DNA from: an uncultured Alphaproteobacteria bacterium
GTDB taxonomy: Bacteria > Pseudomonadota > Alphaproteobacteria > Micavibrionales > Micavibrionaceae
DNA length: 17,464 bases
Assembly: GCA_946481105.1 (NCBI GenBank)
Contig: CAMLMM010000042.1
Location: 1 to 17,464, forward strand
Direction: 5' to 3'
Shown: in pieces, positions 9,080 through 14,448 of the stretch
Layout of the letters: each line of letters starts with the position of its first letter
Position numbering within the stretch: the first letter of the stretch is position 1
Notes under the pieces: model-generated
Told to the model about the DNA's origin: nothing
What the model saw: only the letters and a program-made list of their open reading frames with translations
The model's database searches: none
Made by a program: the position numbers and the translations under genes

Positions 9080-9081
<2 letters not shown>
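9055..9081 (+). terminator. Bidirectional intrinsic terminator between the secreted-protein gene and ilvC
   Basis: An 8-bp perfect stem (AAAGCCCC / GGGGCTTT) has a TTGC loop and is followed on the + strand by AATTTTT. It starts 5 bases after the stop of the secreted-protein gene. On the minus strand it follows the ilvC stop directly and is trailed by a weaker T stretch, so it probably ends both convergent transcripts. Confidence 0.85.
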
Positions 9082-10670
<1,589 letters not shown>

Positions 10671-10690
10671 ATCTTTCAATCCTTTTAAAT

Positions 10691-11020
10691 TTAATATCGT
10701 AATAATTTATACAAAACAAAACATCCAAAAGCAGCCATGACCAACAATATAGCCCATCGACCAATAGATCGAATAGACGTTAATGTCCCTTTCTCATACA
10801 CAACTTCGTCATGCAGTGTATTTTGCTGATTAATCAGAGCGACTGCTGGATCATAATCATCGTTATCCAAAACAGATACCGTTACTTCAATAGCTGGCAG
10901 ATCACCACGTGCTGCCATAAGATGCTCACCTGTTACAGAAACTTTGATACCAGCCTCTTCCAGCATATGAGCAACAAGATGCGCCTCAACAGGATTATAA
11001 CTTCCAAAAACCCGCTGCAT
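10691..11020 (-). CDS. DUF2007-domain protein with C-terminal membrane anchor, inside the ilv operon
   Basis: 109 residues. Residues 1-65 match the DUF2007 (putative signal-transducing) pattern: FGSYNPVEAHLVAHMLEEAGIKVSVTGEH, then an acidic strand region VTVSVLDNDDYDPAVALINQQ. Residues 66-87 are a linker with basic residues, and 88-106 are a single membrane helix (RWAILLVMAAFGCFVLYKLL), giving a cytoplasmic domain tethered at the inner membrane. The ATG is 5 bases after the ilvB stop with only a weak ribosome-binding site, suggesting coupling to ilvB translation. It is visibly more AT-rich than ilvB and ilvN, which could mean later insertion. The domain resembles ACT/GlnB-sized ligand folds in size only. 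No biochemical role can be stated. Confidence 0.8.
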   Translation of the reverse strand: MQRVFGSYNPVEAHLVAHMLEEAGIKVSVTGEHLMAARGDLPAIEVTVSVLDNDDYDPAVALINQQNTLHDEVVYEKGTLTSIRSIGRWAILLVMAAFGCFVLYKLLRY

Positions 11021-11025
11021 TTATC

Positions 11026-12870
11026 TTACACTAAGTGTTTCTCAAATTTTTCGGCATCCGCCGCCAGGATCATTTCATGATGGCCTTTGCCGGACGGAAT
11101 CATCGGGAAGCAGTTTTCCTTCTGATCCACGCAGACATCGACAATCGTGACACGATCAGTTTTCATCATTTCCTGAATGACCTTGTCCAATTCCGCCGGG
11201 GTTTGCGCCCGCAGGCCGATCCCGCCATAGGCCTCGGCCAGCTTCACGAAATCCGGCAGGCTATCGGTATAGGAACTCGAATAACGCTCGCCGTGCAATA
11301 ACTGCTGCCACTGGCGCACCATGCCCATCCACTGGTTGTTCAGGATGAATATTTTGACGGGCAGGCGGTGCTGAACCGCTGTCGACATTTCCTGCATATT
11401 CATCAGGATCGACGCCTCGCCCGCCACATCGACGACCAGCGCATCCGGGTGCGCCACCTGCGCGCCAATCGCCGCCGGGAACCCATATCCCATCGTCCCG
11501 AGTCCGCCCGATGTCATCCAGCGGTTCGGTTCGTCAAATTGCAGGAACTGCGCGGCCCACATCTGGTGCTGCCCCACTTCGGTGGTGATATACACATCGC
11601 GCTTATCCTTGTTCAGGAAATGCTGGAGCCGTTGCAACGCGTATTGCGGCTTGATGATCTTGTCGGATGATTTATACGCCAGGCACTTCACGCTGCGCCA
11701 TTCCTCGATCTGTTTCCACCACGCCTTGAGCGCCACCGCGTCCGGCTTGCAGCCACGTTTCTTCCAGACCGTCATCATCGCGCGCAATGCTTCTCCGGCA
11801 TCGGCAACAATGCCCAAATCCACGCGCACGTTTTTGTTGATCGAGCTGGCGTCAATATCGATATGAATTTTTTTCGAGTTGGGTGAGAACACGTCCAGAC
11901 GCCCGGTCACGCGGTCATCGAAACGCGCACCGATATTGATCATCACGTCGCAATCATGCATCGCCAGATTGGCCTCGTACGTGCCATGCATGCCAAGCAT
12001 CCCCAGATGCTGCTTGTCCGTCATCGGATACGCACCCAACCCCATCAATGTGGATGTACACGGATATCCGGTCATACGCACAAATTCCGTCAGCAGCTTG
12101 GCCGCCTGTGTCCCTGCATTGATAACGCCGCCACCCGTATAGAAAATAGGTTTCTTAGCATTGGCAATAAGTTCAATAGCCGCTTCAATCTTTGATAAAT
12201 CAGGCTGGGTGCGCGGTTGGTAGCGTGTCAAATCGGCATTTTCCGGCGAGGTGTATGGCCCCGGCGCAAACTGGATGTCTTTCGGCAAGTCGATGACGAC
12301 TGGGCCGGGACGCCCGGATTTCGCCACATGGAATGCCTCATGAATAACCGGCGATAATTTCGTCACATCGCGCACCAGGTAATTCTGCTTGGTGCACTGG
12401 CGCGTAATCCCGGTCGTGTCCGCCTCCTGAAACGCATCAGTGCCAATCAGGAAGGTCGGCACCTGCCCACAGATACAGACAACCGGAATGGAATCGAGCA
12501 GCGCATCGGTCAGTCCCGTCACCGCATTGGTGGCCCCCGGCCCGGATGTCACCAGCGCACAGCCGACTTTTCCGGTGGAACGGGCATAACCTTCTGCCGC
12601 ATGCAGCGCCGCCTGTTCATGACGCACCAGCACATGGCGGATGGATTTCTGCTGGAACAGCGCATCATAAATCGGCAGGACCGCCCCGCCCGGATATCCG
12701 AAAATCGTATCGACGCCGTTATCGACCAGCGCCTGAATAACAATCTCCGCCCCGGTGAGTGTCTGCTTGTCGTACACCATCTTGCGCACCGGCGCTTTTT
12801 TGACCTTGGGCGCAGGCGCAGGCTTAACCAGTTTCATCTTTGGTTTGGCGGATGTTTTTGACGGTGCCAT
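11026..12870 (-). CDS. ilvB: Acetolactate synthase large (catalytic) subunit
   Basis: ThDP-, Mg- and FAD-dependent enzyme that condenses two pyruvates to acetolactate, or pyruvate plus 2-oxobutyrate to acetohydroxybutyrate. 614 residues, slightly long because of a Lys/Pro/Ala-rich tail (residues 1-30). The PYR domain has the catalytic glutamate (LVRHEQAALHAAEGYAR, E85) and TSGPGATNAVTGL. The central FAD-binding domain includes YTGGGVI and NIGARFDDRVTGR. The PP domain has EVGQHQMWAAQ, SGGLGTMGYGFPAAIGAQ, the metal site AGEASILMNMQEMSTA (484-499) ending in NN511-512, then MGMVRQWQQLLHGERYSSSYTDSLPDFVKLAEAYG. The usual Asp of the GD-x-S metal motif is Glu485 here. GAGGAT lies 5 bases before the ATG. 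Expression is probably set by the attenuator just upstream. Confidence 0.97.
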   Translation of the reverse strand: MAPSKTSAKPKMKLVKPAPAPKVKKAPVRKMVYDKQTLTGAEIVIQALVDNGVDTIFGYPGGAVLPIYDALFQQKSIRHVLVRHEQAALHAAEGYARSTGKVGCALVTSGPGATNAVTGLTDALLDSIPVVCICGQVPTFLIGTDAFQEADTTGITRQCTKQNYLVRDVTKLSPVIHEAFHVAKSGRPGPVVIDLPKDIQFAPGPYTSPENADLTRYQPRTQPDLSKIEAAIELIANAKKPIFYTGGGVINAGTQAAKLLTEFVRMTGYPCTSTLMGLGAYPMTDKQHLGMLGMHGTYEANLAMHDCDVMINIGARFDDRVTGRLDVFSPNSKKIHIDIDASSINKNVRVDLGIVADAGEALRAMMTVWKKRGCKPDAVALKAWWKQIEEWRSVKCLAYKSSDKIIKPQYALQRLQHFLNKDKRDVYITTEVGQHQMWAAQFLQFDEPNRWMTSGGLGTMGYGFPAAIGAQVAHPDALVVDVAGEASILMNMQEMSTAVQHRLPVKIFILNNQWMGMVRQWQQLLHGERYSSSYTDSLPDFVKLAEAYGGIGLRAQTPAELDKVIQEMMKTDRVTIVDVCVDQKENCFPMIPSGKGHHEMILAADAEKFEKHLV

Positions 12871-12886: not shown

Positions 12887-12914
12887 AAAAAAGCCCCTGC
12901 TTTTCAGCGGGGGC
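12887..12914 (-). terminator. Attenuator (intrinsic terminator) in the ilvB leader
   Basis: On the minus strand GCCCC-C-GCT, loop GAAA, AGC-A-GGGGC: five GC pairs, one C.A mismatch, three more pairs and a GNRA-type loop, followed immediately by six T. It lies 17 bases before ilvB, between the leader peptide and the operon. A terminator here, before the first structural gene, is the hallmark of attenuation. Confidence 0.85.
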
Positions 12915-12964
12915 GTTGCGGGTTTCCTGTCTGTGCCGTTTTCTAGGCTAGGCTCCGCAACGCC
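12912..12964 (-). promoter_or_regulatory. Antiterminator hairpin of the ilv attenuator
   Basis: GGCGTTGCGG (12964-12955, inside the last codons of the leader peptide) is perfectly complementary to CCGCAACGCC (12921-12912), 10 pairs around a 33-base loop that contains the leader stop. The 3' arm shares bases 12912-12914 with the 5' arm of the terminator, so the two hairpins exclude each other. A ribosome that reaches the stop would cover the 5' arm and allow termination. One stalled earlier at Ile/Val codons would leave it free. Confidence 0.75.
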
Positions 12965-13047
12965 GGGCTAATAATAAGGCCGACGATCACACCCACGATG
13001 AGTAGGAATGCGGAATTAGCGTGAAGTTGCGCGACAGGATTTAACAT
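12943..13047 (-). CDS. ilv operon leader peptide (attenuation)
   Basis: A 34-codon ORF, too short for normal gene calling: ATG at 13047, TAG at 12943. Residues 14-27 read FLLIVGVIVGLIIS, with 11 of 14 residues Leu, Ile or Val, including a Leu-Leu-Ile-Val run and an Ile-Ile pair. It ends 28 bases before a GC-rich terminator and overlaps the antiterminator arm, the layout of branched-chain leader peptides such as IvbL/IlvL of enterobacteria. The peptide itself would have no function; its translation rate senses charged tRNA for Leu, Ile and Val. There is no good Shine-Dalgarno sequence (AGG is 15 bases upstream), so the start is the least certain part. A small membrane peptide is the alternative reading. 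Confidence 0.78.
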   Translation of the reverse strand: MLNPVAQLHANSAFLLIVGVIVGLIISPALRSLA

Positions 13048-13088
13048 GCATAAATTGTTACGCCTGTTTACCCTGCCTTGCAACAAAA

Positions 13089-13167: not shown

Positions 13168-14448
13168 ATGACACAGACATTGAAAATCCTTCTGATTGGC
13201 GGCGGCGGGCGCGAACATGCTCTCGCGTGGAAACTGACACAATCTCCCCTTTGCCGTGAACTGATCTGCGCGCCGGGTAACCCCGGCATCGCCGAACTGG
13301 CTACCTGCTTCCCGGTGAAAGTGGATGATGTGGCCGGGCTGGTGAGGCTGGCCAAAGATGAAAAAGTCGATTTCGTTGTCGCCGGGCCGGAAACGCCATT
13401 GGTACTAGGGTTGGGGGATGAACTCCGCGCACTGGGCATTCCCGTTTTCGGACCATCCAAAGCCGCCGCGCAGCTCGAAGGTTCCAAAGGATTCATGAAA
13501 GATATCTGCCGCAAATATAATATCCCGACCGCAGCCTATGAACGCTTTACCGATATCCCCAGCGCCCACGCCTTTATCGATAAACTCGGCGCACCGATCG
13601 TGGTGAAAGCCGACGGCCTCGCCGCGGGCAAAGGCGTTGTCGTGGCGATGACCGTGGCCGAAGCCAAAGACGCCGTGAACGATATGCTCTCGGGCAATGC
13701 CTTCGGCAACGCGGGCGCGTCCATCGTGATTGAGGAATTTCTGGACGGCGAAGAGATAAGTTATTTCGCTATTTCCGATGGCACAAACCTTCTGCCACTC
13801 ACTTCCGCGCAGGACCATAAACGTGTCGGCGATGGCGACACCGGTCCGAATACGGGCGGCATGGGGGCATACTCTCCAGCGCGGTTGATGACTCCGGAGC
13901 TGGAACAGATAGTTATCAAAACCATCCTCGAACCCACCGTCAAAGCCATGGCCGCCGAAGGTCATCCATTTACCGGAGTCTATTTCGCCGGGCTGATGAT
14001 TGTGAAGGGCGTCCCGAAACTGCTGGAATATAATGTGCGTTTTGGCGATCCGGAATGTCAGACATTGATGCTGCGCCTCGAGAGCGATCTGGTCGACATG
14101 CTCTATGCCGCATCGACTGGTAAGCTCGACACCGTCAAGCCGACATGGTCGGCGCAACCATCTTTATGTGTCGTGATGGCCTCACGCGGCTATCCGGGCG
14201 CCTTCGACAAGAATACGGTAATCGGCAATCTTGATGCGGCGCAATCTCTCCCGCAGGTCCATATCTTCCATGCCGGGACCGCGCAACATAATGGTAAGTT
14301 AGTGGCAACAGGTGGTCGTGTCCTGGGTGTCTGTGCCACAGGCCATGATGTGGCCGATGCCCGCAATCACGCCTATAAGGCCGTTGACGCAATCAACTGG
14401 CCAGAAGGTTTCTGCCGCCGGGATATAGCCTGGCGGGCAATAGCATAA
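13168..14448 (+). CDS. purD: Phosphoribosylamine-glycine ligase (GAR synthetase)
   Basis: ATP-dependent ligation of glycine to 5-phosphoribosylamine, the second step of purine synthesis; cytoplasmic. 426 residues, the normal monofunctional length. The N-terminal domain has [13 protein letters not shown] (11-23), PGNPGI (36-41) and [16 protein letters not shown] (71-86). The ATP-grasp domain has [31 protein letters not shown] (145-159) and [11 protein letters not shown] (188-198). The signature [24 protein letters not shown] (214-237) is intact, as is the metal-binding [12 protein letters not shown] (287-298). A C-terminal barrel follows. It diverges from the ilv leader across about 120 bases. 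No Shine-Dalgarno sequence is visible before the ATG (GTCCCTT), so initiation is weak or the mRNA is leaderless. Confidence 0.97.
14413..14439 (+). terminator. Possible terminator hairpin at the 3' end of purD
   Basis: TGCCGCC plus GGG pairs with CCT plus GGC(G)GGCA around ATATAG, with one bulged G. It lies within the last codons of purD, and a T-rich stretch (ATTTCTTTT) begins only about 12 bases later. It is therefore not a canonical intrinsic terminator, though it could stall transcription or protect the mRNA end. Confidence 0.25.

Follow-up and report, generated by a model that had tools for sequence, protein, structure and literature searches.

The window, i.e., the whole 17,464-nucleotide stretch of DNA analyzed here, carries a presumed ilvB-(DUF2007)-ilvN-ilvC operon, and a short ORF lies upstream of it, with a gap of 72 bases to the ilvB ATG (12870). 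The genes of this region and the coding part of the putative leader are as follows:

11026..12870, minus strand: ilvB, encoding the large subunit of acetolactate synthase, at the head of the presumed operon
10691-11020, minus strand: DUF2007 protein of 109 aa (PF09413, E 1.1e-10) with a C-terminal hydrophobic stretch, between ilvB and ilvN
10113-10679: ilvN, downstream of ilvB in the presumed operon
9080-10147: ilvC, downstream of ilvB in the presumed operon
13168-14448: purD, in the opposite direction to ilvB
12943..13047, minus strand: leader peptide ORF of 34 codons, MLNPVAQLHANSAFLLIVGVIVGLIISPALRSLA, with its ATG at 13047 and its TAG ending at 12943
12970..13005, minus strand: control codons 15-26 of this ORF (L L I V G V I V G L I I), L/I/V being enriched 8-16 positions before the stop across 53 leaders (see below)

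The first-pass annotation had singled out this ORF as a Leu/Ile/Val-rich leader peptide of ilvB, and its length, strand, coordinates, ATG and TAG are all confirmed. The branched-chain run within it, FLLIVGVIVGLIIS, had been credited with 11 such residues out of 14; counted on the translation, L/I/V make up 10 of the 14. Taken by itself, this composition is weak evidence and suggestive only: among the 312 window ORFs of 12-100 aa, one other (10933-11007, minus strand) reaches 11/14, and an ORF with at least 10/14 L/I/V arises in 62 of 20,000 dinucleotide shuffles of the 297-base intergenic stretch. As such composition shuffles are insufficient, the ORF is taken as real because it is kept in relatives, and it is this conservation, rather than the shuffling, that dismisses chance composition.

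Relatives were examined in two sets. The first comprised 80 ilvB loci with IlvB identities from 84% down to 66%, its first entries being metagenome-assembled alphaproteobacteria and genomes labelled Micavibrio, a genus filed by NCBI under Bdellovibrionia and which we take to be a member of the alphaproteobacterial order Micavibrionales. A scan of this set for at least 8 L/I/V in 12 residues at most 900 bases from the IlvB match, which would miss leaders with fewer control codons or lying farther from ilvB, passed 18 loci (L001-L011, L013, L014, L016-L019 and L044); none of L020-L043 and L045-L080 passed, and these include Rhodospirillales and Hyphomicrobiales as well as members of the order of the window. 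In L004, L011, L014 and L018 the leader stop lies unusually far upstream, 319-489 bases from the IlvB match, and L014 has, by eye, a further hairpin plus T run near ilvB, so that a second control element may lie there between leader and ilvB. The gene directly upstream of ilvB in L012, L014, L016, L017, L020 and others ends in a YAKRQxTWFxxQ-type sequence and presumably encodes MiaA, which modifies A37 of tRNA; its place in the window is taken by purD, on the other strand. No relative of the DUF2007 protein was found in the 80 loci at E up to 0.01.

The second set was drawn from the order of the best hit, in which 75 of 142 genomes gave an IlvB match at E up to 1e-200 (the other 67 were left out); the sequence upstream of ilvB was read in 74 of the 75, G035 being left out since its match begins at the contig edge. 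A scan for at least 7 L/I/V in 12 residues, followed by a hairpin and T run within 150 bases, matched 54 of the 74 relatives and the window, i.e., 55 in total, from which L136 and L162 were discarded on visual inspection, their ORF and hairpin pairs being unrelated. In 52 of the 74 order relatives, ilvB is accordingly preceded by a short ORF with a Leu/Val/Ile run and a terminator behind it; the other 22 lack this leader. Together with the window, this gives the 53 leaders compared here. The near-copies L113 and L114 are both counted among them, and leader starts were set at the ATG closest to the stop among those yielding 18 codons or more, a rule which may err by at least 3 bases where ATGs crowd.

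Leader and terminator occur in all eight nearest relatives (L111-L118), which form a clade with the window. On the IlvB tree, leader presence and absence requires 10 changes, compared with a mean of 19 for shuffled labels; the leader-bearing genomes are clustered, yet occupy more than one clade, and L165 and L166 lack the leader though placed among leader-bearing genomes (the placement of L121 is meaningless, given its branch length of 10 and odd composition, probably from a wrong-strand translation). Retention of the terminator with loss of the ORF, which the first-pass annotation had named as the observation that would speak against its proposal, is encountered in part: L149, L154, L165, L169, L170 and L174 show a terminator-like hairpin and no such ORF. 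These hairpins, however, differ by eye from the terminator sequence of the window, and none of the eight nearest relatives is among them.

Across the 53 leaders, the L/I/V run is kept at fixed positions while the other positions drift, as the first-pass annotation had anticipated for a genuine leader. L/I/V account for 69.7% of the residues (517 of 742) located 7-20 positions before the stop, and the peptides have a median length of 24 residues (range 20 to 39), with 49 of the 53, the window included in the comparison, being 20-27 aa long. On this comparative basis, the reading of the ORF as a leader of ilvB is supported. These figures also bear on the possibility that the ORF codes for a small membrane peptide having a function of its own, its site before ilvB being incidental or only co-regulatory. 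A 34-residue product containing a hydrophobic stretch of about 14 residues would suit such a peptide, and the lack of a matching Pfam family at E up to 0.1 is uninformative at so short a length. However, most of the leaders (the above-mentioned 49) are very short and largely made of V, L, N and I, and the control stretch of the 53 leaders, with Asn at 12.1%, Phe at 0.3% and Ala at 2.7%, is unlike a yardstick of membrane-helix-like stretches from two window membrane proteins (354 residues), in which L/I/V account for 42.9%, Phe for 8.8% and Asn for 0.8%. Further, the L/I/V content stays while the sequence drifts, and the ORF end is under constraint at the RNA level: the peptide ends recur as ALRxxA, EALRA, GALxV and others, and their likeness is taken as an RNA constraint since they are read from the segment termed region 2 below. 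A membrane peptide is hence very improbable as an account of the ORF; judging by the differences from the yardstick, what is kept in the run seems to be the codons of three amino acids and not a hydrophobic helix.

Downstream of the control codons, the minus strand holds segments that are predicted to form mutually competing RNA structures:

13009..13015, minus strand: region 1 (protector) part a, TTCCGCA, codons 11-13, pairing with TGCGGAG over region 2 in the predicted ribosome-free leader fold
12980..12985, minus strand: region 1 (protector) part b, CGTCGG, control codons 21-23, pairing with CCGGCG over region 2 in the predicted leader fold
12955..12964, minus strand: region 2, GGCGTTGCGG, the antiterminator 5' arm, which encodes the leader end
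12912..12921, minus strand: region 3, CCGCAACGCC, the antiterminator 3' arm, whose last 3 bases open the terminator stem
12893..12914, minus strand: terminator hairpin GCCCCCGCT-GAAA-AGCAGGGGC with one mismatch, an intrinsic terminator by its shape
12887..12892, minus strand: terminator T run of six T

The terminator proposed downstream of the ORF in the first-pass annotation is thus found as a terminator-shaped hairpin (12914-12893) with six T, before the ilvB ATG. A strict consensus scan of the window listed neither this terminator nor a leader promoter; the former omission is put down to the mismatch in the stem, and the latter to promoter hexamers (see below) that are poor by the rule used.

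Region 2 (GGCGTTGCGG) and region 3 (CCGCAACGCC) are exact reverse complements of each other. In an alignment of the close clade (eight sequences, including the window and omitting L114), reaching from 60 bases before the ORF end to just past the T run, the region 2/region 3 helix has 10 pairs and is paired in 80 of 80 cells, whereas sliding one arm by 1-3 columns leaves 31-55%. Region 2 is invariant in this clade and region 3, which lies outside any ORF, varies from C to T and from A to G; both changes keep G-U or U-G pairs and no two-sided change occurs. Shuffling cannot separate the pairs in this alignment, as one arm never varies. The wider set is more diverse, with 36 different region 2/region 3 helices across the 53 leaders, and their mean ungapped score of 19.0 compares with 14.4 for shuffled region 2, the highest of 100 shuffles scoring 15.3. 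The helices reach at least 2 bases into the terminator arm in 51 of the 53, and the uninterrupted helix has just 4-5 pairs in 8 of them. When pairing was scored against the terminator 5' arm, using the strongest hairpin of each leader, the antiterminator's own partner beat the median of partners swapped in from other species in 49/53, and z fell below -1.64 relative to shuffled region 2 in 43/53. In the window itself, the uninterrupted antiterminator helix overlaps the terminator by only 3 bases.

A terminator with a competing helix would likewise be expected if a riboswitch or a protein-bound RNA drove the terminator, the ORF being a chance by-product. A search of the window against Rfam release 15 (4227 families) gave no match at E up to 1, although an undescribed aptamer would escape such a search. 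Against this stand two observations: the invariant columns downstream of the ORF in the close-clade alignment all fall in region 3 and the terminator, and 52 of the 74 relatives retain the L/I/V run. An aptamer-driven terminator is therefore considered extremely improbable. The comparison of sequences establishes the ORF, its L/I/V run, the predicted terminator and the predicted competing helix, together with their joint conservation.

These elements can be assembled into a ribosome-mediated transcription attenuator of the trp/ilv type. RNA polymerase would start at or just upstream of the leader ATG, with a ribosome following and translating the peptide. If charged Val, Ile or Leu tRNA were scarce, the ribosome would stop in the control codons, where it would melt or cover region 1 and leave region 2 free; the latter would then pair with region 3, the terminator could not close, and the operon, presumably as a single transcript, would be transcribed. 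With charged tRNA plentiful, the ribosome would reach the stop codon and cover region 2, allowing the terminator hairpin to close, with termination about 155-160 bases past the leader ATG. In the absence of a ribosome, region 1 would hold region 2, and the terminator would form too.

This scheme was compared with equilibrium folding, in which everything up to the ribosome footprint was masked and the pairing of the terminator 5' arm with its 3' side was computed. In the predicted ribosome-free RNA of the window, the two parts of region 1 hold region 2 and the terminator is closed; across the set, ribosome-free terminator pairing exceeds 0.7 in 44/53 leaders and is 0.7 or less, i.e., not clearly terminating, in 9/53. 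With the A site on the stop codon, it exceeds 0.7 in 53/53 (mean 0.90), an outcome that the masking of region 2 almost guarantees. Moving the A site to 12 codons before the stop, inside the L/V/I run, lowers the mean to 0.53, compared with about 0.7 for earlier codons; over the L/I/V codons 12-20 before the stop it is 0.64, with values below 0.3 in 8/53. In the window, with a 10-base footprint, terminator pairing is 0.3-0.5 at codons 19-23 and 0.9 at the stop. This dip to 0.3-0.5 moves with the footprint, from about codons 20-24 at 6 bases to 18-21 at 14, and codons 15-17 remain at 0.7-0.9 at every footprint tried (6 to 14 bases). Additionally, the predicted fold of the window accommodates the complete terminator together with 7 pairs of the antiterminator. 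Equilibrium folding hence backs the switch only moderately, the modeled effect having the right direction and a moderate size; folding during transcription should favor the region 2-region 3 pairing, as it forms first.

Upstream of the ORF, two further elements may represent its promoter:

13078..13083, minus strand: putative -35 element TTGCAA, an instance of a conserved TTG[CA]H box, with a 17-base spacer to the -10-like element
13054..13060, minus strand: putative -10 element TAACAAT, 6 bases before the leader ATG, proposed from position counts

The -10 element would place the transcript start of the window at, or 1-2 bases from, 13047. Counts over 52 of the 53 leaders (L139 has too little upstream sequence) are consistent with such an arrangement. 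In 34 of the 52, a TTG[CA]H box has its first base between -37 and -34 relative to the ATG; the other 18 lack it at that place, and 500 shuffles gave 1.2 on average and at most 6. Further, T is found at -13 in 34/52, A or T predominates at -12, A is found at -11 in 39/52, and a pyrimidine occupies -1 in 44/52. A Shine-Dalgarno core (AGGA, GGAG or GAGG, -18 to -4) precedes the leader ATG in none of the 52, whereas the same rule matches 20/53 of the ilvB starts. The fixed distance of the -35-like box and the absence of a Shine-Dalgarno core together suggest that the leader transcript begins at or beside the AUG, i.e., that it is leaderless; 375 leaderless mRNAs have been reported in Caulobacter, according to a passage in PMC4117421.

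A leaderless transcript that terminates early also raises the possibility that the attenuator is supplemented by trans action of the leader peptide or of the released short RNA, like peTrpL/rnTrpL of Sinorhizobium meliloti. The predicted layout, with a leaderless ORF on a short terminated RNA, would match that of rnTrpL as outlined in parts of PMC7298713 and PMC10117765. However, outside the L/I/V run and the RNA-constrained end, the peptide is poorly conserved by eye and there is no sign of a trans target; hence, an additional trans function appears improbable. The preferred reading remains attenuation in cis, in which ilvB-(DUF2007)-ilvN-ilvC would be controlled by a ribosome-mediated transcription attenuator, and from the sequence comparisons we assign it a probability of roughly 0.92. 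Counted against it are the absence of the leader in 22 of the 74 relatives, the moderate outcome of the stall model, the 9 of 53 leaders not clearly terminating when ribosome-free, and the empty strict promoter scan, together with the 18 of 52 leaders that have no box at the usual distance, the lack of two-sided changes in the close-clade helix, the 3-base overlap of antiterminator and terminator in the window, and the short uninterrupted helices (4-5 pairs) in 8 of 53 leaders.

Extending this reading to the wider group, we lean slightly toward the view that much of the Micavibrio-like order reads its ilvB attenuator from a leaderless RNA: a promoter at a fixed distance would set the start on the leader AUG, the ribosome would load as the 5' end emerges, and the terminated free RNA of about 160 bases would start with AUG, several branches having dropped the leader peptide, in whose place they have either nothing or leaders of another kind with a terminator. 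Should the leaderless start hold true, this would be attenuation that proceeds without a ribosome-binding site, with the starts of transcript and leader kept together across the order.

The loci lacking the leader show several features of their own. An Rfam scan of 20 of them (L136 and L162 being outside the scan) found only tRNA (RF00005), in three: L175, L176 and L178 have a tRNA gene upstream of ilvB, on the strand opposite to it. L132, L136 and L159, which belong to one leader-less clade, share a stretch before ilvB (..TTGTGATATG..GGCTGAACAGGAAAC..TTTAAAGCGCG..ATGAGCTA..GCCATCGCGCTTTAA..) that forms a long hairpin by eye and has no Rfam match in L132 and L159, the two covered by the scan; the attenuator may here have been replaced by a regulatory RNA of another kind. 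In L149, L154, L169, L170 and L174, an A/T-rich block (TAATTTTATTTC-like) precedes a TTGAC-like promoter (TTTACA in L170), with the terminator-like hairpin noted above also lying before ilvB. This arrangement is perhaps an operator combined with another kind of attenuator.

Ribosome-mediated attenuation of ilvB is already described in Caulobacter, itself an alphaproteobacterium, and in other alphaproteobacteria, and the window adds a predicted example in the Micavibrio-like group. Its interest lies in providing a concrete candidate regulatory switch for alphaproteobacteria known here mainly from metagenome-assembled genomes, along with 52 relatives in which control codons, competing helices and promoter can be compared. 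Among the matches listed from the open-licence literature, no title concerns the Micavibrio-like group, and in the main text of a survey of premature terminators (PMC2965389) the terms ilv, Caulobacter and branched-chain are all absent.

Among the known systems, the S. meliloti trp attenuator RNA begins with the trpL ATG, as stated in parts of PMC7298713 and PMC10117765, a coincidence of RNA start and leader ATG that is reported there and predicted from promoter spacing for the window; unlike the window, it relies on Trp codons and precedes trpE(G). Upstream ORFs of ilvB have been described in Corynebacterium and other lineages, and a passage in PMC10272879 presents the ilvBNC uORF of Corynebacterium (ilvB-II motif) and the ilvB-OMG motif as branched-chain-rich uORFs before ilvB that are thought to act by attenuation, as proposed for the window; the window itself has no Rfam match at E up to 1. 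Closer in lineage, an ilvB leader peptide of alphaproteobacteria, as in the window, was described earlier; a passage of PMC1273637 credits it to Vitreschak et al. 2004, a paper which by its title deals with attenuation. Finally, the first-pass annotation had mentioned an attenuation of ilvBN in Caulobacter, which agrees with the account in PMC4117421, citing Tarleton 1994, of attenuation via tandem Ile and Val codons. By description, the Caulobacter crescentus ilvBN system (Tarleton, Malakooti and Ely 1994) is like the window in its operon type and in the branched-chain codons of its leader, and a ribosome pause there prevents formation of the terminator, according to the corresponding passage of PMC4117421, in the same manner as is proposed for the window.
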